From a virus: 27,964 nucleotides of DNA. The notes below the pieces were generated by a model. It was not told where the DNA came from. It worked only from the letters and a program-made list of their open reading frames with translations, and ran no database searches. The stretch lies in IMG/VR virus record IMGVR_UViG_3300049629_000329, positions 1 to 27,964 of that record, one strand, 5' to 3'. Position numbers and translations under genes: made by a program. Below, piece after piece: positions 1 to 27,964 of the stretch (position 1 is its first letter; each line of letters opens with the position of its first letter).

Positions 1-1
1 C

Positions 2-1234
2 ACCTCGATGGCTAAGCGTGGTTCTAAACCCGGAAATACGACGTTCAGATGGCAGGTTGACCGCCACCCCGACCCCTCCATCGAACTCGGCGTTCTCGAT
101 GGTGCTGACGTTGACCCCACCTCCCCCGCCACCAACCCTGCCTTCAAGCAGTACACCCTCGGCTACAGAGAAGAAGTGGAAAACAACATCCACATGTTCC
201 GCAGAGCCGTCCACGTGTCCAACCTGACGCAGGACATCCTCAACATCGCTGGTGTTAAGGACGAACTCAGCCGCCAGTTGTCCAAGGCCACCATCGACCT
301 CAAGCGTTCGATGGAAATGACCTTCACTTCTGACATCCTCCCCGCCATCGACGATGGTGCGACCCCGTATCGCACTCGCTGTCTCACGGCTTGGATTAAG
401 AACGACCTGCTGGGTGCTTCCACCAACGTTCAGGCCAAGTACGGCTCCCAGAACCAGTCCATCCGCCCCGTCGGCGAAAACTTCCGCACCCCGTCCTCGT
501 CTATCGTAGGCACTGGCGAAAGCGTTGACCAACTCGGCGAAAACACTGTTCAGGACCTCATGACCTCGGTCTATGAGCAGACTGGCCAGTTCAAGAACCA
601 CGAAGCCGTCGTCGGCACCGCCCTGAAGCGTCAGTTCACGAACCTCGTCTACACCAAGACCGAGCCTTCGCTGACCTCCCGCATCCAGAATCAGCGTGAT
701 GCCAACTCTGACTCCATCAAGGTGTCGGTTGACTACTTCGAGGGCGACTTCGGTAAGTTGGCCCTTATCCCTACCCAGTTCCTCCATGCGGGTGTCAACC
801 CCTACCGCATCGAAGACACTGGTGCTGGCTCTACTGGCAACTCCTACACCTCCACTGGTCGTTATGCCGTCTATGATGGCGTCACCGCCGCTGGCAACCT
901 CGTCTGGCTCAAGGACGCCACCACCAATAAGTACGAAAGAGTCGCCGTTGGCACCGCTAACGCCGTCCCTGCTCGTTTCGCCACCGAGGCCGAAGCCAAG
1001 GTTTACGTCAACCTCCACGCCAACAACGCTAAAACCAAGGGCTTCATCATCCCGTGGGACATGCTTGAAATCCGCTACGGCGGTAACATCGCTCAGGTTC
1101 GTGAACTGACCGAAAACGGCGGTGGTCCCCGCAGAATGATGGAAGCGATGGCGGCTCTGGTCGTCCAGTCGCCCCTGACGTTCGGCATGCTGGACTACAA
1201 GGCGGCTAACTCCAACGGCGGTCTGCTTTCGTAA
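2..1234 (+). CDS. Major capsid protein, SU10/DUF5309 type (5' partial)
   Basis: Likely forms the icosahedral capsid shell. The pattern fits the SU10-type (DUF5309) capsid family as I know it. An early FRWQVD segment matches the family's xEWQTD-like segment. A helical stretch follows (ATIDLKRSMEMTF, about residues 97-109), then an ARxxGLxxWI-like segment (TRCLTAWIKND). A late VSVDYFEGDFGKLALIP strand pair and a C-terminal MLEIRYGGNIAQVRELTENGG segment, in the place of the family's LE-x-RNE end, complete the match. The first ATG in the window is at position 8 and gives 408 residues. However, the frame is open to the window edge, and the segment before FRWQVD is shorter than in relatives, where a TSM(I)xRGK-like stretch follows about 20-30 earlier residues. 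The true start is therefore probably upstream. It contains the only Pro-Gly pair and the only CCGG site (30-33) found in the window. Confidence 0.8.
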   Translation, partial: TSMAKRGSKPGNTTFRWQVDRHPDPSIELGVLDGADVDPTSPATNPAFKQYTLGYREEVENNIHMFRRAVHVSNLTQDILNIAGVKDELSRQLSKATIDLKRSMEMTFTSDILPAIDDGATPYRTRCLTAWIKNDLLGASTNVQAKYGSQNQSIRPVGENFRTPSSSIVGTGESVDQLGENTVQDLMTSVYEQTGQFKNHEAVVGTALKRQFTNLVYTKTEPSLTSRIQNQRDANSDSIKVSVDYFEGDFGKLALIPTQFLHAGVNPYRIEDTGAGSTGNSYTSTGRYAVYDGVTAAGNLVWLKDATTNKYERVAVGTANAVPARFATEAEAKVYVNLHANNAKTKGFIIPWDMLEIRYGGNIAQVRELTENGGGPRRMMEAMAALVVQSPLTFGMLDYKAANSNGGLLS

Positions 1235-1246
1235 GCAGAGCGGAGC

Positions 1247-1615
1247 ATGGCTGGAATTCAACCCATCCATGAAACCATCCCGTCCGACCTTCTTAGGCCT
1301 ATGCTTGAGGAGTTTCGGACGGGGTGGGAACTCCGTAAAGTGCAGGCCCATGCACAGAAGAAACTGATTGGGCAGTTGAACCAGCAACTCCACAAGCACG
1401 TAGATGGCTTGGGGCAGTTATCCATGCGAATCCCAGTGGACTCCTACCACTACTGGGGCCAGCGTCTCGGATACGAATGCTGGAGAGATAAGGATTTCGT
1501 CAAAGGATTCCTTAGAGACAACCCCGAGTGTAAGGTAAACTCCAAAGCGGAGAACACCACTCTGCTGGTGAACGGCACAAAAGGCCTGTTCGACCAGTTC
1601 GGTAGGTCAATTTAA
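1247..1615 (+). CDS. Conserved-looking small phage protein, unknown function
   Basis: A 122-residue soluble protein directly after the capsid gene. The first 60 residues look helical and rich in Gln, Lys and Arg. The second half holds the compact aromatic segment YHYWGQRLGYECW followed by KDFVKGFLRDNPE and a short beta-like end. I do not recognise the family. Position between capsid and neck-type genes suggests a virion or head-assembly role, but this is context only. The start lies 12 bases after the capsid stop, and a GGAG lies immediately before the ATG, too close to be a normal ribosome binding site. The stop overlaps the next start as TAATG. Confidence 0.8.
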   Translation: MAGIQPIHETIPSDLLRPMLEEFRTGWELRKVQAHAQKKLIGQLNQQLHKHVDGLGQLSMRIPVDSYHYWGQRLGYECWRDKDFVKGFLRDNPECKVNSKAENTTLLVNGTKGLFDQFGRSI

Positions 1616-2361
1616 TGCGTACCATCAACTTCAGCGAAATCCTTCATACCGCCCTGCAACTTTGCGGGTTGGATAGGAACCTGACGACTACCGACAGGTT
1701 CGCTACTGTCAGGGATTTTGCCTCCAGACGCATGCAGACTGTCTGGGAACAGCATGAATGGCCTGAACTCAAGAAGTTTCAGCAGTGCCCGACTGGCATT
1801 GTCAGCGAACGCAACAAGGTCATCCTGCCCTCGGACGTCGGTCAGGTGCTTGCCGTGTGGACAAAGGACCCCCTTGCACACAATTCCATTGAAAAGGACT
1901 TCGTTCTGAATGGAAGCGACTGCTTTTTGATGAACAACGCAGACCAGAACGTCTGGGTTGAGTACAGAAGCGACGCCCCGAAGTTGTTCGGCGAGCCTTG
2001 GGACACCGCCGTGTCCTACAAGAAAGGCTCTCAGGTCTATTTTGATGCTGGCAGTGGCACCAGTTCCCTTGTACCTGTAAGTGGAAGCCCAGTACTGGGC
2101 AATTTCTATGAATACACTGGTGAAACGCCTTCTGGAACTGGTTCAATCCCTACTCTCGGGTCTTGGCAAATCGTCCAAGTCCCCAGACTTTTCGGTTCCT
2201 ACCTTATCCACGGGGTCCACGCTGACTATCAGCGTTCGCAAGGCCAAACGGAACTTGCGACAGCGGCAGAAGCGGACGCCCAGACGGCCCTCGACCAAGC
2301 CCTCGACCAAGTCCTCAGGCAACAGGGCCAAGTAAGGCGTATCAATTTCAGAAACTACTAA
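1615..2361 (+). CDS. Putative neck / head-to-tail adaptor protein
   Basis: A 248-residue protein with three visible parts. The N-terminal part (about residues 5-50) is helical and contains ASRRMQTVWEQHEWPEL. A central part carries an LPSDVGQVLAVW segment and Gly/Ser-rich beta stretches. A helical C-terminus is rich in Ala, Gln and Asp (QTALDQALDQVLRQQGQVRR). This helix-beta-helix plan, the LPSD-x-x-x-V segment and the place just after the capsid gene resemble phage neck and adaptor proteins that ring the portal. The assignment is by architecture and position, not by a diagnostic motif. It starts on the TAATG overlap with the previous gene, without a Shine-Dalgarno sequence. Confidence 0.8.
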   Translation: MRTINFSEILHTALQLCGLDRNLTTTDRFATVRDFASRRMQTVWEQHEWPELKKFQQCPTGIVSERNKVILPSDVGQVLAVWTKDPLAHNSIEKDFVLNGSDCFLMNNADQNVWVEYRSDAPKLFGEPWDTAVSYKKGSQVYFDAGSGTSSLVPVSGSPVLGNFYEYTGETPSGTGSIPTLGSWQIVQVPRLFGSYLIHGVHADYQRSQGQTELATAAEADAQTALDQALDQVLRQQGQVRRINFRNY

Positions 2362-2362
2362 A

Positions 2363-2662
2363 ATGTCTCATATCAATCAGCCCCAGAACATCCCCAACGT
2401 CGATGTGACTGTCTTCAATAGCGTCGGTACCAAGATTAAGGTGCTCGACGCCGTCAGAAACAGGCGTGTCTTCGGAATCGTCAACTCTTCCTCCACGGCC
2501 CTCCTCAACTTCTACCTCCAGCCTGATGGTGCTGGCTCCCCTATCGTGCTTTCGCATGAAAAGAATGCCAACAAGCATGACGGCGGCTCGTTCGAACTGA
2601 ACGGCTACAATGGTGAAGTCTGGGCTGACGGCGAAGGATACGTCTACCATTACGCACAGTAA
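2363..2662 (+). CDS. Small beta-rich virion protein (decoration-like), unknown
   Basis: A 99-residue protein predicted from residue pattern to be almost all beta. Alternating hydrophobic strands include VDVTVFNSV, RRVFGIVNSSS and LLNFYLQP, and it ends with GEVWADGEGYVYHYAQ. The middle 'RRxFxIxNSS' plus a terminal 'VWADGEGY' is a pattern I associate with small beta-sandwich proteins encoded among phage head and tail genes. A capsid-decoration or tail-accessory role is inferred only. It begins one base after the previous stop and ends in a TAATG overlap with the repeat-protein gene, suggesting coupled translation with its neighbours. Confidence 0.8.
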   Translation: MSHINQPQNIPNVDVTVFNSVGTKIKVLDAVRNRRVFGIVNSSSTALLNFYLQPDGAGSPIVLSHEKNANKHDGGSFELNGYNGEVWADGEGYVYHYAQ

Positions 2663-3735
2663 TGCCTTTCAAGGGGGACATGCGACTGGGTGGCCCTCGG
2701 GATAACGAAGCCACCCTGAACGGGACATCCGAAGGCCCGTCAGTGCCTGCGGCTGGAACCTTCATCCGTAATGAGTCACTGGTACGCCCTATCGCAGAAG
2801 GGGGCTTGTTTGTTTCCTACACAAGTTCAGATAACAACCCTCTTCAGGAGCCTAACCAGACTTGGACTGTCCCAGTAAAAGCGGATGGTATCGGCGGCGA
2901 ATACTACGATTGGACGACGGCAAGCAACCCAGTCTACCTGAGTGGGGGCACCCTACCTAGTTCCACTCAATCAACCAACCTGTACATAAGCATAGGGAGT
3001 AGCACGTACATGAACGGGACTTCGTATTCACAATACGTTCATGACGGGGCTGGCGGCTACGTAGTCACTGGAAGTTCGACTTACACCGCCGCAGACACAA
3101 CGTCTTATTTCCACGTTGAGCACGGCGTTCCTCATTACTTGTCCTTCGAAGGAACCCAATACCAGTCGGGCACAAAATCAGTAAATTACTACCACAACGG
3201 GAGTGGCGGGTACACCACTCAAGAACAAAGCCCATCATGGTTCGCAGATGGCACTGTTGTGGGCTCAAAGAATGTGACGACCTACGTGTATGTTACTGAA
3301 ATTGATACGCAATACCAGAGCGGCGGCTGGATTTACGACATTGAGTTGTACCAGCAGAATTTATCCCTGCGTTCCTACCCAGCACACGGAACGTACACCC
3401 CTAGCGGAACTAGGGTTGCAAGCGGACAGCCATACTTCCACAACGGGAATGGCGGGTACTACTACAGCAACGCTGGCATGCCTACGGGAAATTTTTCAAG
3501 CCAGACGGAATACATTGTACTGAGTTTGCCTTATGGTAACACAAGCAGTCACGAAAATGGCTCCACTATCTTAACGGAGTATTACGATGGTGCGGGGGGC
3601 ACTTACTGGGAGTCCTCACGCACGTACGCAGCATACGGACACTACTTTACCTCTTCCAGTTACAGTGACGAGTGGAACACCTACTACACCTACTACTACT
3701 CTGATGGGGTAGGCGGCTACTACACTCAATCATAA
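2662..3735 (+). CDS. Tyr/Gly/Ser-rich repeat protein, probable tail fibre or surface protein
   Basis: A 357-residue protein dominated by Tyr, Ser, Gly and Thr. A short motif of the form (Y/F)-x-(D/N)-G-x-G-G-(Y/T/E) occurs six times, its Asp/Asn codons starting at 2884, 3043, 3196, 3442, 3586 and 3703. Most copies are 39-53 residues apart, with one gap of 82. The motifs are separated by beta-type segments rich in SxxYxxG. Such shallow repeats with little charge are typical of extended beta structures in fibres and other surface-exposed virion proteins, so receptor contact or capsid/tail decoration is a reasonable inference. There is no enzyme motif. Stops are tandem TAA-TAA, and the second overlaps the next ATG. 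Confidence 0.85.
   Translation: MPFKGDMRLGGPRDNEATLNGTSEGPSVPAAGTFIRNESLVRPIAEGGLFVSYTSSDNNPLQEPNQTWTVPVKADGIGGEYYDWTTASNPVYLSGGTLPSSTQSTNLYISIGSSTYMNGTSYSQYVHDGAGGYVVTGSSTYTAADTTSYFHVEHGVPHYLSFEGTQYQSGTKSVNYYHNGSGGYTTQEQSPSWFADGTVVGSKNVTTYVYVTEIDTQYQSGGWIYDIELYQQNLSLRSYPAHGTYTPSGTRVASGQPYFHNGNGGYYYSNAGMPTGNFSSQTEYIVLSLPYGNTSSHENGSTILTEYYDGAGGTYWESSRTYAAYGHYFTSSSYSDEWNTYYTYYYSDGVGGYYTQS
2884..3720 (+). repeat. Six-copy DGxGGY-type protein repeat
   Basis: Six in-frame copies of a short D/N-G-x-G-G-Y-like core in the 2662-3735 gene: DGIGGE (2884), DGAGGY (3043), NGSGGY (3196), NGNGGY (3442), DGAGGT (3586) and DGVGGY (3703). The DNA copies are diverged from each other, so this is an old protein-level repeat and not a recent tandem duplication. 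Confidence 0.8.
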
Positions 3736-3737
3736 TA

Positions 3738-4112
3738 ATGGCCCTTAGAAGGTACAATACAATCAGGGTTTCTGACCGAGCCACACACACCTCAAGCGGG
3801 TTCATCATCCCACGCACAAGGAGAGAGGGTGCCAACCCGCAACCACCTCCTCCCCCGCCACCGCCGCCGCCAGAATGCACTGGAGGGAGAGTGTGGAACG
3901 GCACCTCTTGCGAATGCCCTAATGGGTTAATCTGGAATGGGTCTGGATGCGTCCCTCCGTGCGGGGAAAACTCACACTACGACCCCGAAGTCGGCAGTTG
4001 TGTTTGCGATGAAGGATATCACTGGGATGGGGCTGGTTGCGTCCCTGACACCCCTCCCGATTGCGGCGAGGGATACTACTGGGATGGAACCAGTTGCCAG
4101 CCTAACCCCTAA
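3738..4112 (+). CDS. Poly-proline stalk plus Cys-rich WNGxxC repeat protein
   Basis: A 124-residue protein with an unusual plan. The basic N-terminal part (residues 1-35) is followed by ten consecutive prolines (36-45), then by about 79 residues with ten cysteines. The Cys-rich part consists of short units with an aromatic-(N/D)-G-x-x-C core: VWNGTSC, IWNGSGC, YHWDGAGC and YYWDGTSC, with a looser copy around YDPEVGSC. The pattern recalls EGF-like or trypsin-inhibitor-like disulfide repeats seen in extracellular proteins. No signal peptide is visible. A rigid spacer carrying a disulfide-stabilised tip on the virion surface is an inference. It starts on TAATAATG after the GGY-repeat gene, so the two products may belong together. 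Confidence 0.8.
   Translation: MALRRYNTIRVSDRATHTSSGFIIPRTRREGANPQPPPPPPPPPPECTGGRVWNGTSCECPNGLIWNGSGCVPPCGENSHYDPEVGSCVCDEGYHWDGAGCVPDTPPDCGEGYYWDGTSCQPNP
3843..3872 (+). repeat. Ten-codon poly-proline tract
   Basis: Ten consecutive Pro codons using all four synonyms (CCA, CCT, CCC, CCG), which argues for selection on the protein rather than a slipped-strand expansion. It joins the basic N-terminal part to the Cys-rich part. Confidence 0.9.
3876..4109 (+). repeat. Cys-rich WNGxxC-like repeat block
   Basis: Four clear units and one degenerate unit, each with an aromatic-(N/D)-G-x-x-C core, hold ten cysteines in about 78 residues. The units are 15-30 residues apart. The block reaches the C-terminus of the 3738-4112 protein. 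Confidence 0.75.
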
Positions 4113-4114
4113 CT

Positions 4115-5500
4115 ATGCCTAGAGAAATTAAACCCGACGGCGACCTAAGATTCGAAGGATTCGCATCCTTTCCGAACAGTGCCTCCTTCTCGCCAGAGTC
4201 TGGCATGCTTGAGTACTCCGAGAACATGGAGTTCAATGAGGGGGTTGCCATGCCTAGGCTTGGTAGCGTCCTTGCTGGAACCGCTGGTGCGGCCATTGAA
4301 TACGCCTGTGCCGCCTCATCCACCAGTGGTGATAGCATTCTGCTCTGGGGAGCCAACCAAAGATTCAACTGCGACACTGGCGTGTTCACTTCGGTCAATC
4401 TGGCGGCTAAGCAAAAAGCCCGTGGTCAGGGGTATCAGGACGCACTGACCATGGAGACGGCAGATACGGACTTCGTCGCTGGGGCAAACATCGTCGAGCG
4501 GCTGGTTACGGCAAAAGGGGATAAACTTAAGTTCTCACTCTACTCTGGAAGCCAGCCGTACGAGCCAGATTCGGCTTATCTGGTTCAGGGGACGTACGAC
4601 TCGATTCAGGCAATCGAGCCAGACATGAACGCCATGCTGGTTTTTGGCAAAAGGAGCATTTACTCCGTTGCGGCTGGACTAGGCAGACAGGCAAACGTCA
4701 ACAGATTGCCGAATCCTCAGGTGTTCCACCAGATTCAGAAGATTGCATCCCAAGACGGATTGGCCGCAAAAGACGGAATTTGCCGAATGGGTCCTCAAGT
4801 GCTGTTCATGGACACGGACGGCATCAAGGTCGTAAAGTACTCTGGAGGCAGGAATGAGTACCAAGATGGTTCTTCGCCGATTACGTTCCTGATTCAGGAC
4901 ATCATTGACCTGATTGACCCGACTAAACTCGGTCAGATTACTGCGGCTTCATGTCAGGGTCGTTGCTACTTCACCCTTCCGTTGCTCGCCCCGTACAACA
5001 GGACTGTCGTCTTGACTCTGAACCTCACCAATAAGAACCCTATTGAGTCTATCTACGTTTACCCGCAGTCAATAGACGCCGTCATGTCTGCAAGAAAGAA
5101 CGGGAAGATGAGACTCTGGGGTGTGAACTACGGAATGGGACGAATCTACCTGCTTAATGAAGGTAGCACGGACAATGGCTCGGCCATAGTTGCGAAAATC
5201 CGTAGCCGTAGTTACATGTTCCAGTCCCACTCAGAAAAGAAGTATGACGATTGCTTCCTGTCGCTAGACACAAAAGGCCATGCCGAAGTAGAAATGAACT
5301 TCATTTCCGTAAATCCAGACGGGAAGTGGCTCATGGATAAGTTCTCCGCCAACCTAGGAACCGCTGTTAGACGTGCTTTGACCAACAAAAAGTCGATGAG
5401 CGGCAAGTTGGAAATCGTTGTTAAATCTGGTAGGCCCTGCATCTACAGCATAGGTTTGGAGGCCTCAATTGTCGGTAAATCCATTTTCTCGTCGTTCTGA
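4115..5500 (+). CDS. Putative tail nozzle / tail-tube protein (beta-propeller-like)
   Basis: A 461-residue protein, mostly beta. The N-terminus reads SPESGMLEYSENMEFNEGVAMPRLGS. This is the 'chosen elements, N-x-x-x-x-G-x-x-x-R-x-G' opening typical of podovirus nozzle proteins. Blade-like segments follow: AMLVFGKRSIYSV (about residues 174-186), a central GICRMGPQVLFMDTDGIKVV and later SIYVYPQSIDAVMSARKNGKMRLWG. The C-terminus has a YDDCFLSLDTKG strand pair near residue 380. The family idea rests on these patterns and on the position after the surface proteins. An alternative is another large beta-propeller tail protein. The gene ends in a TGATG overlap with the next start and shows no Shine-Dalgarno sequence. 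Confidence 0.85.
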   Translation: MPREIKPDGDLRFEGFASFPNSASFSPESGMLEYSENMEFNEGVAMPRLGSVLAGTAGAAIEYACAASSTSGDSILLWGANQRFNCDTGVFTSVNLAAKQKARGQGYQDALTMETADTDFVAGANIVERLVTAKGDKLKFSLYSGSQPYEPDSAYLVQGTYDSIQAIEPDMNAMLVFGKRSIYSVAAGLGRQANVNRLPNPQVFHQIQKIASQDGLAAKDGICRMGPQVLFMDTDGIKVVKYSGGRNEYQDGSSPITFLIQDIIDLIDPTKLGQITAASCQGRCYFTLPLLAPYNRTVVLTLNLTNKNPIESIYVYPQSIDAVMSARKNGKMRLWGVNYGMGRIYLLNEGSTDNGSAIVAKIRSRSYMFQSHSEKKYDDCFLSLDTKGHAEVEMNFISVNPDGKWLMDKFSANLGTAVRRALTNKKSMSGKLEIVVKSGRPCIYSIGLEASIVGKSIFSSF

Positions 5501-6420
5501 TGCCCAATCCTGACCCAAATCCTTACTCGTACCCTCCGTACCCTAATCAGTCGTACGTATCGGTCCATTCCATGGACCTTCAGGGTGTCGGTGCTGGGTT
5601 CTACATCCAAGAGATGAAGAACCTGCATACGACGATTGACCATTCTACGAACCCCCCAACCATCACAACGACAGACACTTACCCCGCTGGTGTGAGTTGG
5701 GTTGCTGGTGCGAAATTCCAGATTTGGAGAGGTTCTTGGGGGCAAGTCTGGGTTCCTAGTAAGACGCCTCCCTACAACGTTACGTCCAGTAGTGGTTCTG
5801 GCTGGCCGCTATGCTTTGCCACTCTCGCAGAAGCACAACTCGCATTGTCTCAGTCAGTGTATGCCGCCCCAGAGGGATACACCTTCTGGGGACGCAATCC
5901 GAGATTCGAAATCGCCCAGACTATCGAGGCATACAACGCCAACGCAGAAGAATTTGCCGAAGCAGACGCAAAGGTAACGACTCACCTGACTTCTAGGGCT
6001 TTGACTGCGGCTAACTCAATCTTCGGGTATTACTCGGCAAAACTCGTCAATCAGGACAGCAACAACCAGTACGTTTTAGGCCTGAGTGCGGCGAGCGGCG
6101 GCGGTCAGAATACGACCTATCTTGCCAACTCCCTCTCCGTGCAACAACTGGTAGACGCCGCCGACAAGGCCCTAGTATCCGCTCAGGGAATCCCAATCGT
6201 GGTTCCATTCGAGTCTCCGCTTATCTCCGATTCGCATGCCTCCGCTGTCGAAGCCAAGAACGCTGGAGAAATCCGTGACCAGCAAATCAGGCAGACCATT
6301 GCTTCCGCAGGTGGCGTCCAGCAGGGCTGGGACATTGCGAACCAGAGAGCCTATGACTGGGAGGGTGCCTCCATCGTCATGGGTGCATTCGGACAAAAAG
6401 CCGCCGCCGCACAGACTTAA
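5500..6420 (+). CDS. Uncharacterised virion-module protein
   Basis: 306 residues in two parts. The first 130 residues are Pro-, Tyr- and Trp-rich (NPDPNPYSYPPYPNQ, then WRGSWGQVWVPSKTPP) and look beta/loop-like, with an FATLAEAQLALSQS helix. From about residue 145 the protein turns helical and Ala-rich (AQTIEAYNANAEEFAEADAKV), ending in GVQQGWDIANQRAYDWEGASIV. I do not recognise a family. The split between a surface-like front and a helical tail, and its place between the nozzle and the coiled-coil gene, suit a tail-associated structural protein. It starts on TGATG with the nozzle gene, and five bases separate its stop from the next ATG. Confidence 0.8.
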   Translation: MPNPDPNPYSYPPYPNQSYVSVHSMDLQGVGAGFYIQEMKNLHTTIDHSTNPPTITTTDTYPAGVSWVAGAKFQIWRGSWGQVWVPSKTPPYNVTSSSGSGWPLCFATLAEAQLALSQSVYAAPEGYTFWGRNPRFEIAQTIEAYNANAEEFAEADAKVTTHLTSRALTAANSIFGYYSAKLVNQDSNNQYVLGLSAASGGGQNTTYLANSLSVQQLVDAADKALVSAQGIPIVVPFESPLISDSHASAVEAKNAGEIRDQQIRQTIASAGGVQQGWDIANQRAYDWEGASIVMGAFGQKAAAAQT

Positions 6421-6425
6421 CTAAC

Positions 6426-8623: not shown

Positions 8624-8628
8624 ATAAA

Positions 8629-19900: not shown

Positions 19901-22900
19901 GTAGGCCCTACCGCCGTTCTGGGAAGGGATGACATGACATTCCTCACTGGAGGCACGAAGCCTGCCGACATCTACAACGTCAACACTTGGGATAACTCTG
20001 CAATCAGGTATCTTTACAGGGACAATAGGGCGGCAGAGCCAACGGGTGCATATAAGACGTTCGAGCACCTGAACAGCATTGTCACGTCTACCAGAAACCT
20101 AGTTGCGGTAACTAGGGAAATCATCGCTCACGCAGAGATGGGCTTAGGAGAAGGCTCGATGACATCCGAAGGAGCCGCAGGCAAGGCCGACATCCTCAAT
20201 AAGATGAGGCTCATGCACGACATGGCCGTCAGGCTGTCCTTGGTGGAAGAAAGAACCACATCCCTCATCGGAGACAACAAGGAGTCTAATTCAGACCAGC
20301 CCTCTAGAAACGTCATCTCTGGCCAGAGTTACATCGATGGCATGGCACCGCTCATCGTCCAAGAGTCGTTCCTTATGAAGGGGTATGCTGGCAATGATGG
20401 TAGCGTCGTCATCGGCGAGACTAAGTTGGCCAACACTGTCTCCGCCGTTCAACTGGATGGCGTGACCAGCATGCCGTTCTTTGATGGAAGCGGGCTCCCG
20501 TCAATCGCCGCCAATCCTAATTTCGTCAAGAACGCAGTTTCTGGGCTGATTGCAAGAGACATGGCCGTCCGTACTGTCTTGTTCGGAGAAATCACCGACG
20601 GGCAGGACGTTCAGGGCCCCCTCAGCCACATCTCACCGATTTCGACTTTCGTTGAAGGGTTCAGAACTGGCAATAATGCCAGCGTGAAACTTGACACCAT
20701 TGCCGCTGGGAACGAATCGATAGCCACAAAGACCACCCTGAACGGATTACACGCATTCCATTCAGTACTTTACACTGCGACAATGAGGGCTGGCAAGCAG
20801 GGCCAACTCAGCGGCGTGTTGGGCTCCGACAAGACCTTCTATGAGACTTGGGGAGTGAATTGGAACACCCTTAGGACTGGAGTCGGCGACACCACTGAAA
20901 TCAGTTCTGCCTCTTACGTACCAGCGATGGCACCGCTCATCGCCGCCGCCTTCTCGCCGAAGCAACTCGGCATCAGGAAGGGAAGGATGACTGTGGTTGA
21001 CCACCTGCTCCCAGAGCAGAGACAACTGCTTAAGAACGCCAGAGAAGCCTACAAGGACTTCTCCATGGACACTGGGGCGACTCCTACGCCAGAGCAAAAA
21101 GCCGCCGCCGATGCGTTCTTCGAGTCCATCAGCGAGTCACAGCATAGGCTCATGTTCGGACACTTAGACACCGCCAACGCAGAGATTACCTTTACTGCTC
21201 TTTGCGGTGCTTACGAAGCCCTGTCCATGATTCAAAGGCTCCCAGAGTCTGCAAATTTGGATGCCATGTTCGGCAGAAGAACCAAGGATGTGCTGTCCGA
21301 GGAAATCGGAAAGTACATTTCCGAAGGAAGGTACATGTACGAGCAGGGAAGCAGTGAAGGTCCAGTTGCAAAAAGCAGATTCGCCAATGGCAACGTGGGC
21401 CGCCTTTGGATGCAAGTCATGTACAGAAGCGTCATGATTGACGAAACCAATCGCCACATGCTCATGGGCGTATGGTCTTTGATGGACCAGCATTCGAAGG
21501 GTTACAGGTCGGAAATGATGGTAGAAGAGGGTGCTAGGCAGAACTACCCGATGTACTACAGGAACGGGTTCAAGCCAGAATTACTCCGAGACAGGGCTGG
21601 AGTTCCCTTCTCTTCGTTGAAGACGACGTTTGCCAAGAGACAGTTCAGCGGCGTCGGACCAGAGCACAGCATCAGCGACTTCGACAATGCGAAAACTTCA
21701 TCGCCTTCATTCAGTCACTCGCTTGCCTCCGAGACGTTCGAAACTGGTGACGATTGGAATGAGCACTATGTCCTACAACAGACCGACGGGGGGCTTGCCG
21801 AGTCCCTGTTCAGCCCAATCGACATAGAGAAGACCAACTCGGAAATCGTCGCAATCGACGAAGGCCCTTCACAGCAGGCACCTGACGCAATCATAGGTGC
21901 TTCGAGAATCGATGTCGCCATGAGGGGTTCTCCCATCAGCAACAAACTTACCCGCAAGCAGATGGTTGATTCCATCATCACGCAGGCCAAGAGGAACAAG
22001 ACGGACGCCATTTCTCTTGAGCCAGCAAGAATGAGGCTGAGCGGAAGACTTGTCAGCAACGCCATCCAAAGGGGCTGGGAGCAGGAAAACGTCAACTCGT
22101 CAGAAGGCTTGGGCTTCAGGGCACATGCTTACGGCATCACCAATAACCTTTTCGGCCCGTTCATGTTCTTCACAAAGAACGAAATGGTCAGTAACGTGTC
22201 TCAGACCATGGCACCTTCCAGAGTCGGCTTGACCGAGCCCATGAGAGGCTTTGCTTGGAAGAGACTTGAAGACGGAAGCCTAGTGCTGAACATCAGCGGA
22301 GACATCACTGGCTACAAGGCAGGCTACCTCGGCAATCAAATCAGGGCTACGGCTCCGAATCCCAAGACCAAATTAGGTGCTGGTTTCAGCATCAGAGAAA
22401 GCCTTGGCTATGACCCAAGAAGCGGAGAAATTTCTAACGCCAACCCGTACATCACGCTGTTCGGCTTGCAGACTGCGGCCCTCGGAGGCGGCGGTGCGGC
22501 TGGACTGCAAAACTACTTCAGAATCGGCGGGGAGCCTTGGAGAAAGCAGATTGTCAGTTCCGCAAGGAACAGGCTCAAGAAGGGGGATAGTATCAGGTCC
22601 TTGTACGAGGGGACCACCCAGAACAGAGAAGGAATCAGAAATGTCTCTGGGTACATCAACTTCAACGCATTGGAAGTCCTGATGACGTCAGACAACGCCC
22701 ACAATGACAAGGATGTCATCGCCTTGGCTCTGGCAATCAACGGACACAAGACTGGTGCACAGCACATCACGCTTACGTTCAGGCCAGAAGAAGCGAACCC
22801 AGACTACATCAAGTCCGTTCTTATGGCCATCATGGTCATGGGTGCTGGTGCGGAGATGGCCAACAGCATCTGGAACAAGACTTACGAAAGACAGGGAAGT

Positions 22901-25900
22901 GCAATGAATCCTTTCCTCGGAGACGGAGAAAGAATCATCGAACTCCTGAGCAACAAAAACTCCCTCAACATTCTCAAGGGTGAGAACACCAGACTCATGC
23001 AAATCATGGGAGAGAGGGTCATGGATGCGATTGCCAGCAGGGACGCCCTCGAAATCAACGACATCACTGGATTTGCCGCTGGCGAAGGCGTCCGAGAATC
23101 GGGAAGGTCTTCCACTGAGTCTAGGAATTTCTTCGACAAGTTCGCCGCTCAAACGCTCTCAAGAAGCCAAGACGTCATCCCAGACATCGAGCGTATCGCC
23201 GCCGCCGCAGTGGGTGCCGACCATGGCTACATCCTGCCAGACGCCGAAAGGCACCTTGCCAAGAACGGAGACACCACTGTTTCCATCGAGCACATGTTCC
23301 CCAACAGGCCTGAACTCACCCAGTTCGCTTGGGACGGCAAGGAGTCCAACGGCGTCAGCATCGTCCATAGAGGTCCCAAGTCCAAGCCTACTGGCTACTT
23401 CGTTACCTACGACATCCAGACTGGCGTCAACGACAACGGCGACCCCATCATGTCGAGAAAGGTCGTGCCTGTTAAGACCCTCGTCGAAGCGGAAGCCCTC
23501 AGGAACAAGTACGGGGTCAGTGCCAGCAAGGCCATCCTCGCACAGGCACTTGTTTCGGCTGGTGCTGGAGAAGCCTCCATCAAGGAAGGCGTCATGAAGG
23601 ACAGCGACAACATCGACGTATCCGTCAGGGCCAACAAGCACCTCGACGCTTCCTCCAGACAGGACGGAACCCTGAACTTGGTCAACGACGGCACCTTTAC
23701 TGTCGGCGACCTTGACCTCAACATCTCAAAGGCCGAAGCCACGGCACTTTCAGCCGCCCTCGGTAGCAGGGCCGTTCTACAGACCAAACTCCCCGCCATC
23801 GAAGTAGGCAGGGCTAATCTCATGATTGGGGACAGCAACGCCAGAGAACTCGAAGGCATGCTCAGACGTAAGATTAACTTTGGCTTCGGTCAGGGTCCTG
23901 TCGAATTCGCATCCAAGATGATGCGTGTCGTCGCTTACGGAAAGAAGAAGAGCGGCAAGGACAAGTACCCAGACTCGATGACTGGCTTGGATTGGTTCAA
24001 GTTCCTCAAGGAAAGTTCGGTGTCCAAGGATGAAATCAGAATGTCTGGCATCGCTTACCTGTTGCACGACAACATGAACACCCATCTGACCAGAAAGGAT
24101 TTGGCTGAGTTCATCTACACTGTCTATCCGAGAACATCCAGACAGGCCAGAACCACGCAAATCAACATCAGTTCCGATGTGCACAAGGTAAAGACTGGCT
24201 CCCTGAGCGGTATCTACGAAATGCCATACCTCGAAGACCTCCAGACCAAGGAAGACTTCGTCATCAACACCCATCTGGCCAACCTTGAGTCTGTTGCGGC
24301 TATCATCGAAAAGGCACTTACCGAAGAAACGACTAGGGCCGACGCAGAAGCACTCAGGGCCAACATCATGAAGTCCATTGAGTTCACTGTGGCTGAGATG
24401 GGTGCACCAGAAGGCCTTGCTGGACTGACCGACCTTACGGCGGCGATAAACTACCTGAGGAACGTCTATCAGGAGGGAAGGAATCAGATGGCTTACACCC
24501 ACGCTGGCTACGCTGGTGAAACCAGAAAAGTCAGACCCGCCATCCTTGAATTCGTGATGGCAGAAAGCGTCTTCGGAAGAACGAGCGACCAGTACAAGGC
24601 CATCGAGACAGTCCTTGGAGACGCAGGGCTCATCAATCCCTATTCCATAATCCACTCCGACGTGTCGGGCATGGCCAACCCGTTCGGAGCAATGTCCGTC
24701 AGTTCTGGCAACAGGGGAAACACCGCTACGTCCCTGAATGACGGAGTTGGTCCGATGAAGAAAGATTATGATTCCACTGATTTCGTCTACCCCTCCTACC
24801 AGAGCCAGAACTTCTACTACCACGCTGGAAATTTCCACTCTTCTTGGGCCTCTTTTACTGGCTACTACCAGTCGAACCCCATGTACACCGAGTTCTACAA
24901 CAAGCGTCTCCTCAAGGAAAAGGACGCCGCCATCAAGACCCTCAAGGAAAGAATCAAAGGCACCAAGGACCCTGCTACCAAGGCGAAATACGAAAGCATC
25001 ATCAGTAACATCAACAGGGTGTACACTGTCAGAGAGATGATTAAGAACGGCCATGCCCTGCACGACTACGGGCATTACAGTGACAACGACATCGGCACCT
25101 TCCAGATTGGCCACGTCAGAACCACGCAGACCATCCTTAGCGGAGAATACGGCTTCGGCGACCCCAAGACTCCGAACTACCACGTCGAAGAAGTGACTGG
25201 TACCTACGGATACCAGTTCAACCCAGAAGTCGTTCTGGCAATCGAGGAAATCCAGTCGGACTCGTTCCAGTACCATTCGTTCGGACCGCCCTCAGCCGCA
25301 GAGAAGGCACTCCCAGATTCTCTCGAACAAGTCGAAGGATTCAAGAGGGCTGGCGACATGGCGGCACTGCTTCAGAGCAGGGAAAAGTTGGCGAGCATCA
25401 TAAGCAGTGTCGGCTCTCTCATCGGCACTCAGGTGCAAAAGATGTCCTACAATGGATACGGAGACGTCGAACTGAACTCCCTGTTCGGGGTGAAACTGTT
25501 AGATTCCCTAAGCCCAGTCGAAAGGTTCGTGCTCCGTGAGGACTTGGCACTCGTCGATAGCGGAAGAACCATCGAAGTTCCAGAAGGGCTCAGGAAATAC
25601 ACAGGCAACATGCAGAGAATCCCCGTCTTCGTCTTCCCAGAAATGTCGAAGTACAAGGATACGGACTACACACGTGCTGAGGGCTACAACCCTGAGGCGG
25701 CAAGCAAGGTAATCAATGACTTGGTCTGGGCCGCTGGCGACAGCGTGCTGGACAAACTCCTGCCAGACAGAGTCTCTTCTTCGGACATCAGAAGTGCGTT
25801 CGAAAACATCAGCCAGTCTTACAATTCGGCGTCGAAGGCCGTCACTCCATCCCTCATATTCGCACTTGCGGCCATGGCCGACGAAGAGGTAATCGCAAAA

Positions 25901-27964
25901 TCGATAGAGATTGCGAACTCGGAAAGAGACATGCTTCCCTACAAGGGCATCAACTGGGATGCCGTGGCAAGACGCACCCTAGACAGGCTCAAGCAGAAGA
26001 GAACAGAGGTACTCAGCGGAGAGACTCCAGAAGCCTACAGCAGGTATGCGAAGATTAGGTTCTTCGACACGCTCATGGACACGTACGAGGAATGGATTTC
26101 CTCCCCGCAGAACAGGTCCGCAGTCGTGCTTCTCTCTGACGCAGGCAACTGGAGGGAATGGGAATTCACTGGTTCCAGTGAGTACACTGATTACCAAAAG
26201 CACATTGTCGGCAATCAGAAGGACTTCCGTGCCATTACCCAGCCCCATGGATACAAGGGAGGAGTCGGAGCAAGAGTCTTCCCTCCTACTCATGCACTCA
26301 TAAAGGACGCTCAATTCCACAAAGGAAGGAAACCGAACACGATTTCTGGCGTAAGAAGTTATGAGATGGGTACCAATGAGTTCGAGGGAATGGGCACGAA
26401 CCACCACATGCAGTACAGGGTGGGAAGCACGGCCCTAGGAACAGTCGTAGCCAACAGCGTCCAGCCTCTGATGACAATCATGGCCGCCGCCGCCGACGCA
26501 CCCGAAAGGCTTAAACAAGTCGAGAAGGACATAGCCGAACTCTCCAAGGTGTTGCCTGTTGTTCCGACTGGAAGGGACCCTGCCATCCTGAACACCCTGC
26601 CCTTCGGCGTGGAAGACATCTACAAGCCTATCTCTCTTAACGGAACTGTCATGAGAGCGGCCAATGCTGGCCTCAGTGCGATTACCTACGCCGACGCCAG
26701 ACATCAGGTGAATCGTGGTCATAGCATGGATGCCTCTTCAGCCATGCTGGTCGGAAGACAGGCAAACATCATGTACCTAGGTCAGGACGGGCCTAATTCG
26801 CACATGCTTTCATACCTGAACATGTTGCCTGATTGGCTCACCTATCAGTTGCATGACGGGTTCATGAAAAGAATGGCCGAATTTAGTCAGCAGGAGTTCA
26901 TGACCTACTTCCGTAACAGACAGACCTTTGAGCACGGAGGAATCAACGCACCCTACAACGTTCATCTGCTACTAACACTTAAGGCCGCAATCCCCTACCT
27001 CTTCACCGATGGTATCAGCATTGATGACGTCAAGAGCGGAGAAGGGCTCAGGGACGTCTGGAAGGCATTAGCCGATGGAAACATCCATTCCATCAAGGAT
27101 GAAGTCGTGTTCTCAGACTATTCCTTCAAGGAAGATTCCTCTCTCATCGGCCCAGACGGAAAGCCTTACAAACCTAGGGACCTCTCCACCAACTTCATGC
27201 AGAGGTTCTATGGGAAGCAGGTCATCGGTGAGAAGAAGTCTGGAAACCAAAGAACAATCGACAACGGACTGGCCAACATCGGAAGATACCATTTCTGGTT
27301 CGAGCGTGGTGACGCCATGGGCTACGTCTCCCAGTATGGTGCTCCGAGTTGGTTCATGGAGTCCATCATGTGGGGCCAGACCAAAAAGAACCAAGAGAAG
27401 TTTTCGACCGACGCCTTTATCAGACCCAATGCGGTGCTTAGGGAAGACGGAACTTGGACCATCATCAATTCCAAGACTGGTCAGGTAATCATGGAGAAGA
27501 TTTCCAACATGGGGCTTCTCAAGGAGGCCATGTTGCAGAACTCCGAATACACTGGAAGCCTTCCGTACGTCGGTCAGTTCGTGAAGCAGTGGGGCCCTGT
27601 CGGAGGTTACGTCACTCAGGGACACAGCAACGGACATGTCACTGGAACTGACAACATTGACTGGAGCCAATCCTTCGGATTTGCCGAAGGTGCACTTGAC
27701 CCAACCTCACAAAGAAGAAGACAGCCGTACAGGTCGCAGGCCGCTGGACTTATCGGTCAGGACTTCTTCTCAAGTCAGGGTGCTGGCACGGCAGGCTCTA
27801 CCTTCGGCAATGTTCCTTCTAAGCCGATGTCGCCTACTGGACACTTGGCCACCCAACTGGGATACAAAATCTGGTTCAAGCATGTCATGAAGGTGGACAC
27901 CAATGACGTTCAGGCTGTCAGCAACGCCCTGACCACCATCGCTACCAGATTTTGTATCCCAGTT
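10973..27964 (+). CDS. Giant large-polyvalent-type virion protein, at least 5,664 aa (3' partial)
   Basis: One frame from ATG 10973 to the last base without a stop, 5,664 codons (over 600 kDa) and still open. Likely packaged in the particle and delivered with the DNA; enzymatic and membrane-shaping roles are inferred. Residues about 418-472 are Gly-rich and hydrophobic (VVVGWPASMAF; GVGVGFAWGG). Residues 606-610 read HEYGH in EAAVHEYGHVFLDSIL, and 2158-2162 read HEIQH in ETLLHEIQHAIQ. Both have the HExxH zinc-metallopeptidase form; the second closely matches a motif common in phage and plasmid large polyvalent proteins. Residues about 4336-4390 (DWFKFLKESSVSKDEIRMSG) and 4714-4763 (HVRTTQ to IEEIQSD) resemble the paired helical and 'EIQSDW' domains of the same group. 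No polymerase motif was recognised. The final seven codons are suspect because of the terminal inverted repeat. Confidence 0.9.
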   Translation, partial: MQNPNQDNQAEEDILNKAANQLFRGQTLDFSHLASRDANIESDMVSEAEMSNDDIYDFIRDNRDRSFDKTTAEGRLLFARFEEANSRRNKFTFETIKQMAGIVSSVPFDIAAGVARNVGVGKDGEFAPQRIVGSVVDGVLRDARDLAGLLTQSEDPDSPLFRFRNLITGNGSIESRIDQFNEARWWGNRSNDLEEGKADILSEWVPDDYKEFAKKLVDPKLANALSYIGLDTIPFIKSRFARQGLKDSVRAYKGIDELYSVSGEEALQTRDWFSTTAEKFGKLSQKLTGQGLVAGSEIVSTPIAYIQQKISRGSDVLEHRVGYVPPEVANGASTLLTEAGPTLTKEGLELGPIRSVLFSFGLKPIAEYAGVLGNEMIDAYQGVVKPKSEHLGAGMLQRLALNGGRISMSKEAQAVAKFTNVVVGWPASMAFPALKRAVGDAAYMGLLGYANARGEGAAGGVGVGFAWGGLSGSLRHLHNVHTQGVAHKYIIDNFDSYQIQAIAKSSPDHANHVSEFLKRVDSIGNQRVSATVRAQIMMGWNVNAQTQLRFADLNELAGEFGPKVLAENGLLEAGAMTSKGALIHTPKGDVVWVNKGVATTPEAAVHEYGHVFLDSILQKTDGTAVDALKSFLGFKKDGGVAPDKVLALWIAHYSQRRFGMDKANPNWLLGPADLVRINNESVKGFGNYQYALQSINAAREFIAAHPNEAFEMYKTDSGVMRLRLFEEFPIIERLMQETFAYNQSNSLLVKAPDIFLRNKDLGLIRGAMENWFTLRNQRTVADLETAGVLVREKLKNAEEVGMDGRRGATVLENMFWEDGTYLSFPMLDKWVGEQMKRALKYGDVNITTLTGDRAEAWSRQTGKTRFFEGGKIKTKKEIEEIVTQTSNEVANILDSLPDDAKPKWDITKGGNRRVSLTSLSQQAWEAIRDSGTYTKEEYQALVTMVEVLKQIDSGKPVFNTYYGQYLGVSQQIVEAALGERLKGRQVAVTNRHFAPFNIELIVSKFDEAGNPLRTPKSHITIHAHDVSVLNKRKMNQWNKPEVRALFKDFGHFSETFVEWFENHSRDASTRKTSADLLRPAFGDKAERVRDIMYETWGGRKRNDESYINAPEGYAGGRDGPLYPIHSLRFDLLANIQRQSQIFPEAFSGQVMGLFYKEGVGYEPMRRNMMLGNFTERELANGRRFYTNGSGYEIRGEMPKFKVFNPYGNLVGVFKTIEKAQAAADKDSSKRDVAESSPSREDLGDAPIVENYDNPSITPAQVYSGIANLCIYEGGYLPFKISKSARGNAGSALTNFVTELSAYNKAVFPSVGPVDPENIYRRFDKLPVVKLHTLIENPDEWRKALGPEYFDRIEVAYDPRADFHGGVVIGLSAGRTGGTMFGVDADTFSTENSIESASVKIRAHLQGLISFKEKSQTMVRTGLSMMDPDFQMMHQTGKMLGFMYAEYKAQNPNGPLTQKAFEDWNESQVTQSIQEKSIELAFNPKVKPRRNIPFPVKGDFSKPHKGNLVPRYAQSLFDRLEAGAVNGGITPISADNPKVAESLNNWMCDIVEEYLSGRAQATIFGNNFVVTIDPVKWEIPQDVRAYFNKFSTKGDPTGGYYWKKFSRFVQDQFITHAFSKIGNRNVAERFDVAGNSAFMLENIAISKLNEGAYPTEFENFGPEDGFQFPIAVEFGAKYPSVSSQMANMVAGTKSGRALVLVSPVTGGATKVVGKYSKFVVASTNLTVMGYSGFDPLGKGSFLPSTPTTEPSVGLNDIPYFDGKNGQLGLVEAPVDLEANMLGVLPFSGVTGKGSLFKHFNEKWHIDHVEYLAGQLSIPFDRQKDGTSVGLLRWQKSLFQMGLKDASHVYLHQVAVGAMQAEIGASIMSDPNDAHFNQLVAMTDIDPSAINKAEYGQAIANKGYASIIHAAQNASLDSIGSKYKRKGSKRPAEVGSVNSIIEGSFKTSDKPSKREQLTKGFVREIRKTMGELEAAGYDPHRKVIRGMERRSDLMLGGFMNSTAKEREMLETGAMRLVKTDSGKTYKAFEFSDKDAVLLLEKVGGKMHLLPFMEDGDKGFETFIRDTELGLNAVFINANSVKLGDILDHKLLYMHYPSLKNVVVQWKEGYGADYNPDSDVIRLGIDTFIGEELAGRRNKDYLTHAMFGHDGQRHATETLLHEIQHAIQMREMWSDSYALTGGAIGTAGRIMSANISGVAGRTIAAAGENKDINNEGVEFFTADGKKSTSFSNEETLNSIYRLGNTPMHKHLRQIAYPAFVRVSNEAINALTDAHIHHPPEHPARRNAQSAVKSLVAMRDEAKALTERFKKGELSEEAFRSLMCDTDNGLAIRFIRRIEQVRNAMYLDASPIAEKLYNAMGNAEKYLHRSLEALNGFEFISKMAERDGMSGDVTLATTKLKQVFNNLAGMHYLSQRIEVEANLTEQRSRMTQAELNSTGLNPDGSRKSLLDGMTGALDIGYKGNTLRNIGIALKNKQRIRVADLMIGGVASKDSSRSVNNNDIISMMARGSLITWTVRQLKNELDALDRVAVIGRGWEVAEDGSVKLVAKTATVQLDSKKPRKKFKEVGESIKGGIPMSGVQSGDIYLSLDENDRVHVTNAIWGSGERTVTIEDIARLIDGVVLNEWEVRTPTEVMDTVLRDDFPAVVKISELRDVLKERGVSDDGLALANIEAFYKEGNGKSHLYGPLELTKYELADVLAVFHRQYINERIVSVSEGVKKFGEVNLDRDSLSPSKIIESIVGQGRDDPNIEDPLRNFLLQRVGAVFDLADSNTDRLPFAHGDKRIGITSYDANQDLRRTTANLNPFNRPDWMSSEDYDAIVKRLESKGHFKQGKLFDATTLANTSLGVRNSMRAEQIARETNMRIRRKMFLLKPFYEKVVDVIDKAADPDARKIKIKLLDEIAKTLIEPELEGMREYSSSSSIMNTQSVQPYTQDNYERNADFTKSPTARFGMTLSLVGSGNTAFGDTGFIELQTLQTAVGPTAVLGRDDMTFLTGGTKPADIYNVNTWDNSAIRYLYRDNRAAEPTGAYKTFEHLNSIVTSTRNLVAVTREIIAHAEMGLGEGSMTSEGAAGKADILNKMRLMHDMAVRLSLVEERTTSLIGDNKESNSDQPSRNVISGQSYIDGMAPLIVQESFLMKGYAGNDGSVVIGETKLANTVSAVQLDGVTSMPFFDGSGLPSIAANPNFVKNAVSGLIARDMAVRTVLFGEITDGQDVQGPLSHISPISTFVEGFRTGNNASVKLDTIAAGNESIATKTTLNGLHAFHSVLYTATMRAGKQGQLSGVLGSDKTFYETWGVNWNTLRTGVGDTTEISSASYVPAMAPLIAAAFSPKQLGIRKGRMTVVDHLLPEQRQLLKNAREAYKDFSMDTGATPTPEQKAAADAFFESISESQHRLMFGHLDTANAEITFTALCGAYEALSMIQRLPESANLDAMFGRRTKDVLSEEIGKYISEGRYMYEQGSSEGPVAKSRFANGNVGRLWMQVMYRSVMIDETNRHMLMGVWSLMDQHSKGYRSEMMVEEGARQNYPMYYRNGFKPELLRDRAGVPFSSLKTTFAKRQFSGVGPEHSISDFDNAKTSSPSFSHSLASETFETGDDWNEHYVLQQTDGGLAESLFSPIDIEKTNSEIVAIDEGPSQQAPDAIIGASRIDVAMRGSPISNKLTRKQMVDSIITQAKRNKTDAISLEPARMRLSGRLVSNAIQRGWEQENVNSSEGLGFRAHAYGITNNLFGPFMFFTKNEMVSNVSQTMAPSRVGLTEPMRGFAWKRLEDGSLVLNISGDITGYKAGYLGNQIRATAPNPKTKLGAGFSIRESLGYDPRSGEISNANPYITLFGLQTAALGGGGAAGLQNYFRIGGEPWRKQIVSSARNRLKKGDSIRSLYEGTTQNREGIRNVSGYINFNALEVLMTSDNAHNDKDVIALALAINGHKTGAQHITLTFRPEEANPDYIKSVLMAIMVMGAGAEMANSIWNKTYERQGSAMNPFLGDGERIIELLSNKNSLNILKGENTRLMQIMGERVMDAIASRDALEINDITGFAAGEGVRESGRSSTESRNFFDKFAAQTLSRSQDVIPDIERIAAAAVGADHGYILPDAERHLAKNGDTTVSIEHMFPNRPELTQFAWDGKESNGVSIVHRGPKSKPTGYFVTYDIQTGVNDNGDPIMSRKVVPVKTLVEAEALRNKYGVSASKAILAQALVSAGAGEASIKEGVMKDSDNIDVSVRANKHLDASSRQDGTLNLVNDGTFTVGDLDLNISKAEATALSAALGSRAVLQTKLPAIEVGRANLMIGDSNARELEGMLRRKINFGFGQGPVEFASKMMRVVAYGKKKSGKDKYPDSMTGLDWFKFLKESSVSKDEIRMSGIAYLLHDNMNTHLTRKDLAEFIYTVYPRTSRQARTTQINISSDVHKVKTGSLSGIYEMPYLEDLQTKEDFVINTHLANLESVAAIIEKALTEETTRADAEALRANIMKSIEFTVAEMGAPEGLAGLTDLTAAINYLRNVYQEGRNQMAYTHAGYAGETRKVRPAILEFVMAESVFGRTSDQYKAIETVLGDAGLINPYSIIHSDVSGMANPFGAMSVSSGNRGNTATSLNDGVGPMKKDYDSTDFVYPSYQSQNFYYHAGNFHSSWASFTGYYQSNPMYTEFYNKRLLKEKDAAIKTLKERIKGTKDPATKAKYESIISNINRVYTVREMIKNGHALHDYGHYSDNDIGTFQIGHVRTTQTILSGEYGFGDPKTPNYHVEEVTGTYGYQFNPEVVLAIEEIQSDSFQYHSFGPPSAAEKALPDSLEQVEGFKRAGDMAALLQSREKLASIISSVGSLIGTQVQKMSYNGYGDVELNSLFGVKLLDSLSPVERFVLREDLALVDSGRTIEVPEGLRKYTGNMQRIPVFVFPEMSKYKDTDYTRAEGYNPEAASKVINDLVWAAGDSVLDKLLPDRVSSSDIRSAFENISQSYNSASKAVTPSLIFALAAMADEEVIAKSIEIANSERDMLPYKGINWDAVARRTLDRLKQKRTEVLSGETPEAYSRYAKIRFFDTLMDTYEEWISSPQNRSAVVLLSDAGNWREWEFTGSSEYTDYQKHIVGNQKDFRAITQPHGYKGGVGARVFPPTHALIKDAQFHKGRKPNTISGVRSYEMGTNEFEGMGTNHHMQYRVGSTALGTVVANSVQPLMTIMAAAADAPERLKQVEKDIAELSKVLPVVPTGRDPAILNTLPFGVEDIYKPISLNGTVMRAANAGLSAITYADARHQVNRGHSMDASSAMLVGRQANIMYLGQDGPNSHMLSYLNMLPDWLTYQLHDGFMKRMAEFSQQEFMTYFRNRQTFEHGGINAPYNVHLLLTLKAAIPYLFTDGISIDDVKSGEGLRDVWKALADGNIHSIKDEVVFSDYSFKEDSSLIGPDGKPYKPRDLSTNFMQRFYGKQVIGEKKSGNQRTIDNGLANIGRYHFWFERGDAMGYVSQYGAPSWFMESIMWGQTKKNQEKFSTDAFIRPNAVLREDGTWTIINSKTGQVIMEKISNMGLLKEAMLQNSEYTGSLPYVGQFVKQWGPVGGYVTQGHSNGHVTGTDNIDWSQSFGFAEGALDPTSQRRRQPYRSQAAGLIGQDFFSSQGAGTAGSTFGNVPSKPMSPTGHLATQLGYKIWFKHVMKVDTNDVQAVSNALTTIATRFCIPV
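27855..27964. repeat. 21-bp perfect inverted repeat flush with the window end
   Basis: Bases 27855-27875 are the exact reverse complement of bases 27944-27964, with a 68-base spacer; pairing stops at the inner side (27876 versus 27943), and the outer side is cut by the window end. It lies inside the giant gene, whose frame reads through into TRFCIPV. A repeat ending exactly at the edge is what a fold-back chimera or a graph dead end gives; a natural hairpin is the alternative. Confidence 0.85.

Follow-up and report, generated by a model that had tools for sequence, protein, structure and literature searches.

Non-temperate dsDNA phages are known to eliminate Type II restriction sites (Rusinov et al. 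2018, PMC6286503). In that survey, 7.1% of the Type II (site, genome) pairs were eliminated, elimination being defined by an observed/expected ratio below 0.1, and the words 'amino acid' and 'codon' are absent from its text (PMC6286503). Among individual phages, T7 has 6 GATC sites versus 143 expected and 2 CCWGG sites versus 59, whereas three or four words each are eliminated in Anabaena phage A-4L, Vibrio phage VP506 and Sinorhizobium phage phiM5, the latter two having capsid proteins distantly related to that of the phage described here. This phage resembles those of the survey in the near-total loss of orthodox Type II sites, seemingly without any other defence (PMC6286503), and by our own estimators all eight of its core motifs fall below the ratio of 0.1. 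However, at least eight specificities are eliminated jointly in this genome, which has lost a dipeptide as well. By contrast, two to four words are eliminated in T7, which keeps CCGG (58 sites), and in none of A-4L, VP506 and phiM5 are CCGG and CCWGG both eliminated. As far as testable, site avoidance as a kind is known, whereas its multiplicity and the dipeptide loss are new; no paper on a restriction-driven dipeptide effect was found in the non-subscription literature searched.

The analysed stretch of DNA (the window) comprises 27,964 bp, namely positions 1-27,964 of the IMG/VR record IMGVR_UViG_3300049629_000329 of an uncultured bacterial virus, and is a portion of a phage genome of ~48.5 kb. 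No near nucleotide match to its first 25 kb was found among 50,697 phage records. The window is recognized as phage DNA because it encodes an SU10-type major capsid protein and its complete relatives possess a large terminase subunit (TerL). The capsid protein belongs to the SU10-type class with a PF17236 match of E=1.7e-29 and 103.7 bits (curated cut-off 24.1). It is followed by 11 further genes and a giant open frame, all in the same direction. The features discussed below are as follows:

1..27964, both strands: stretch with zero or few GATC, AGCT, GCGC, CGCG, CCGG, CCWGG, GCWGC and ACSGT words
8..1234, + strand: major capsid protein gene of the SU10 MCP type, PF17236 (Pfam match and relatives)
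28..33, + strand: Pro-Gly codon pair CCC GGA, capsid Pro8-Gly9 in SKPGNTTF
1247..10973, + strand: 11 head, tail and internal-protein genes, Pro-Gly-free
3628..3632: leftover GCWGC site (GCAGC)
10973..27964, + strand: giant open reading frame with 5,664 codons or more, running off the window end, Pro-Gly-free
19401..19405: leftover GCWGC site (GCAGC)

All eight avoided words are palindromic or pseudo-palindromic, so that counts on the + strand cover both strands. As read by eye in the preliminary description, GATC, AGCT, GCGC, CGCG, CCAGG and CCTGG are all absent from the window, and CCGG occurs once, at position 30. GCAGC/GCTGC is also as rare as described, with no GCTGC at all, but the one clear copy of GCAGC reported near 3628 has a second at 19401. 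Other palindromes remain common, again as described, with 58 to 174 copies each (GGCC 148, CTAG 58, GTAC 85, CATG 174, TCGA 136, ACGT 91); therefore, palindromes are not avoided in general.

The two null models that the preliminary description had proposed both predict far more sites. The maximal-order Markov expectation for palindromic tetramers is 65-103 each, in agreement with 300 synonymous-codon shuffles that keep the proteins and codon usage fixed. In these shuffles, the observed and expected counts are 1 versus 107 for CCGG, 0 versus 109 for AGCT, 0 versus 111 for GATC, 0 versus 75 for CCWGG, 0 versus 65 for GCGC, 2 versus 67 for GCWGC and 0 versus 51 for CGCG; the z-scores of these seven words range from -9.3 to -14.2, and the lowest count in any shuffle is at least 35. 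An eighth word, ACSGT (ACCGT/ACGGT), was overlooked in the preliminary description and is absent versus 49 expected (z -8.6). The recognition words are thus depleted relative to both the composition- and the codon-corrected expectation, as site avoidance implies. The same scan applied to ten codon-shuffled windows yielded no eliminated words. A shuffle preserving codon pairs, which the preliminary description named as a possible refutation, would be an unsuitable null, because the avoided words themselves extend across codon pairs. The avoidance is specific to the central base: the words lost are CCWGG, GCWGC and ACSGT, and the counterparts GCSGC and ACWGT exceed their expectations. GAGACC (0 versus 15), GTCGAC (0 versus 9) and CACGAG (0 versus 7) probably also belong to the avoided list. 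CCSGG, GCCNGGC and TCCNGGA were dismissed as separate avoided words, being by-products of the CCGG and CCWGG loss. In a scan for interrupted 3+3 motifs, the strongest matches were palindromic Type II-like words; weaker non-palindromic motifs of this kind (2-3 versus about 22) are not claimed as avoided.

Such absences could in principle arise from codon usage, from the composition of the proteins or from a local bias in the sequence, and the low counts of a few tetramers such as ATAT and TATA are perhaps compositional. As a source of the missing words, however, bias has a negligible probability: shuffles with identical proteins and codon usage expect 51-111 copies per site, relatives of like composition show normal counts, and a dipeptide vanishes together with a word pair, as described below. 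TATA occurs once in the window.

A scan with the capsid protein identified 78 related IMG/VR loci, and a TerL scan added further relatives. Two of them, of 48.3 and 50.0 kb, look complete because they carry a terminal 123-bp repeat. CCWGG is almost gone from all but the most distant relatives, including those with 64% TerL identity and 42% GC; for this word, a cause unrelated to restriction is conceivable. Among the 81 rows scored, GATC is eliminated in 60, AGCT, CCGG, CGCG and GCGC in 43-52 each, CASTG in 15, GAWTC in four, GTAC in three and GGCC in two, and at least 11 independent specificities are eliminated in the genome G001. The family tree requires at least one state change for CCWGG and for GATC, four for AGCT, five for CGCG, six for CCGG and for GCGC, nine for GCWGC and 14 for ACSGT. 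For example, G008 and G009 avoid GGCC instead of GCGC, GTAC is avoided in G025 and G028, and GAWTC in G012-G014. Some relatives lack interrupted palindromes, such as GAAN4TTC (0 versus 18-23), CCTN5AGG (0 versus 19-20) and GCCN5GGC, and the asymmetric GGTCTC is also among the avoided words. At the same time, relatives of similar composition contain normal counts of the words that are avoided elsewhere. Avoided sets that differ between lineages are expected if they track local restriction enzymes, and the turnover of words across the tree fits host restriction repertoires that change.

Many of the avoided words coincide with the sites of known Type II enzymes, among them XmnI for GAAN4TTC, EcoNI for CCTN5AGG and BglI for GCCN5GGC; GGTCTC, CASTG, GCWGC, GAWTC, GTAC and others are established Type II sites as well. 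To our knowledge, no enzyme matches ACSGT, GCACGC, GACATC or GCAGGC, and no paper naming ACSGT was found in the literature searched. Several further words are low in particular lineages. GCACGC/GCGTGC is found 0-1 times versus 15-19 in many relatives (e.g., G001, G007, G008, G012, G033), whether their avoided lists are long or short, and GACATC, GCAGGC and CCGCTC are low in some relatives. In G027 (43,237 bp), and only in this lineage, the centre-specific pseudo-palindrome AGSCT (AGCCT/AGGCT) occurs once versus 119 expected. GCCGGC occurs 0-2 times versus 23-36 in G016, G018, G026, G027 and G032, where CCGG is tolerated or partly depleted, which suggests that these phages face a six-base specificity for GCCGGC.

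The preliminary description noted the pressure on codons; the pressure also extends to amino acids, a point that it lacked. Pro-Gly is encoded by CCN GGN and always creates a site, since CCA or CCT followed by GG gives CCWGG and CCC or CCG followed by GG gives CCGG. According to our enumeration for the eight-word set, Pro-Gly is the sole unencodable dipeptide, and there is no further impossible tripeptide. In the window, Pro-Gly occurs once in 9,301 residues versus 36.1 expected, whereas Gly-Pro occurs 33 times. Pooled over the 22 genomes in which CCGG and CCWGG are both avoided, the count is 33 versus 743 expected, with a few capsid genes missed by automatic gene choice omitted, compared with 334 versus 427 in ten CCGG-tolerant relatives. 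All sequences are metagenomic assemblies, the pooled genomes are related and the gene calls of the relatives are automatic. Among the dipeptides frequent enough to test, Pro-Gly shows a log2 change of -4.1 (17-fold) and the next one of -1.1 (2.1-fold), and Pro-Gly is the only dipeptide lost.

The tolerant relatives write all 334 of their Pro-Gly pairs with CCC or CCG and none with CCA or CCT, although the latter two make up 37% of their proline codons. Conversely, 53 of the 55 leftover CCGG or CCWGG sites in the 22 double avoiders encode Pro-Gly in the largest covering frame; the site at G011:36535 was rejected as a Pro-Gly leftover and counted as an exception, because the giant gene covers it in a different frame. 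The tolerant relatives have eight conserved Pro-Gly columns, at which the avoiders mostly carry Ala-, Ser- or Thr-Gly, or Pro followed by Asn, Asp or Ala. The loss of Pro-Gly is linked to the state of CCGG: the two switch jointly in all three independent pairs on the tree, a number too small for a formal test, although every single genome is by itself strong evidence. Some lineages with a partial loss of both had been read as a time lag, a reading that was abandoned since CCGG and Pro-Gly are about equally depleted versus tolerant relatives; the partial loss may instead be explained by avoidance of the longer GCCGGC in those lineages. T7 was considered as a second case of Pro-Gly loss (7 versus 30.5) and rejected, because Gly-Pro is also low there (11 versus 30.5); in T7 proteins, proline and glycine are rarely neighbours in either order.

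The sole CCGG of the window (30-33) overlaps its sole Pro-Gly, at capsid codons 8-9. An N-terminal capsid Pro-Gly, with one CCWGG or CCGG site there, is present in all 22 double-avoiding genomes, and the dipeptide is found in each of the 57 capsid proteins whose N-terminus is intact. Where the leftover site is CCWGG, a single copy may be tolerable, as EcoRII-type (Type IIE) enzymes require multiple sites (PMC4081073).

Cytosine methylation within the words, by a host or phage enzyme, followed by deamination of C to T could erode them by mutational decay with no selection from cutting. Of the single differences behind the losses of AGCT between relatives, most are indeed C>T or G>A (25 of 34 and 34 of 44), and deamination may contribute at this word. 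As a general account it is very unlikely. GATC, where methylation is normally on adenine, is equally empty, and transversions as well as transitions of other kinds occur among its losses. Such other transitions are seen at several words and transversions at every word tested, many of the latter in the losses of ACSGT, CCGG and CGCG (4-13 per comparison), and the changes are not confined to C>T and G>A. Furthermore, Ala-Gly and Pro-Ala, frequent substitutes for Pro-Gly, require C>G or G>C, and most comparisons show no surviving copy among the 11-53 aligned sites, at an overall nucleotide identity of 71-81%. A phage methylase was not found either: the DNA methyltransferase families PF01555, PF00145 and PF02086 have no member in 39 family records (with positive controls), nor was the Dam-type family PF05869 detected in 24 records. 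A search for ArdA, made without a positive control, returned no match and carries no weight. With no member of the searched methyltransferase families found, the phage has the profile of passive avoidance.

The sites would also have to be absent if the phage, or a co-resident element, encoded nucleases to attack the DNA of hosts or rivals, and functions are unassigned for many of the phage genes. This scenario is hardly probable, as it would take at least eight specificities in a 48-kb genome and a different set in each lineage, and the assignable genes of G006, among the part of its genes searched, code for structural proteins, terminase, an exonuclease VIII-like protein, a RusA-like protein and a helicase loader.

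Very probably, the best explanation is that natural selection by Type II restriction enzymes of the hosts stripped the genome of their sites, and we infer both that these enzymes were the agent and which of them were involved. The claim that hosts carrying many restriction systems shaped the phage is supported by the lineage-varying sets, the matches to Type II sites and the lack of members of the searched methyltransferase families. The infecting DNA would be unmodified, because no methylase that could protect it was found, so every site would carry a risk of cutting, and over many host encounters site-free variants would survive. Almost everywhere the sites could be removed by synonymous codon changes. 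With both CCWGG and CCGG enzymes to evade, Pro-Gly could be removed only by amino acid replacement and would be retained only where presumably indispensable, chiefly at the N-terminus of the capsid protein. The avoided set would then turn over among lineages as the restriction systems of their hosts change. We hold with good confidence that host enzymes specific for CCWGG and CCGG jointly removed Pro-Gly from the phage proteomes, and that the word profile of the family records the changing Type II repertoire of a host population, including a hitherto unassigned specificity for ACSGT. The lack of the tyrosine integrase domain PF00589 in 24 records (14 of 14 controls detected; tyrosine type only) is consistent with a lytic life, in line with the preliminary description; site elimination is most frequent in non-temperate phages.

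The hope that the missing words would identify the host was disappointed: scans of 84,980 genomes with the major capsid protein and with TerL yielded no relative and no contig linking a host. The capsid protein matched only distant phages, with at most 28% identity, the exonuclease VIII-like protein had matches of about 27% in many phages, and the protein encoded at L094:17361-18437 had no plasmid match. No host is therefore proposed.

Site avoidance is usually regarded as silent and confined to codons, whereas here two specificities make one dipeptide unencodable, at a cost to the phages of amino acid replacements across their proteins with few fixed places spared. The extent to which protein sequences can be shaped by host defence, acting through the genetic code, is thus open to a natural experiment in this family, which also marks residues that resist replacement, such as capsid Pro8-Gly9. 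The same or other dipeptide losses are predicted in phages or plasmids that meet complementary specificities, and the DNA of a phage family alone may reveal the restriction systems of a host population and the rate of their turnover.

The remaining genes of the window are poorly assignable. The 11 genes downstream of the capsid gene start at positions 1247, 1615, 2363, 2662, 3738, 4115, 5500, 6426, 7547, 8629 and 10026 and have no family matches except a sub-threshold one to DUF4407; the giant gene has no match in Pfam, PHROG or NCBIfam. Its full length in the relatives is 5,660-6,460 codons, and it occupies 36-40% of the ~48.5-kb genomes (the window and G001, G003-G006, G012-G014, G017-G019, G021, G024, G025 and G033). 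It contains the HExxH motifs HEYGH and HEIQH and is located after the structural genes, so its product may be a giant virion protein that is ejected.
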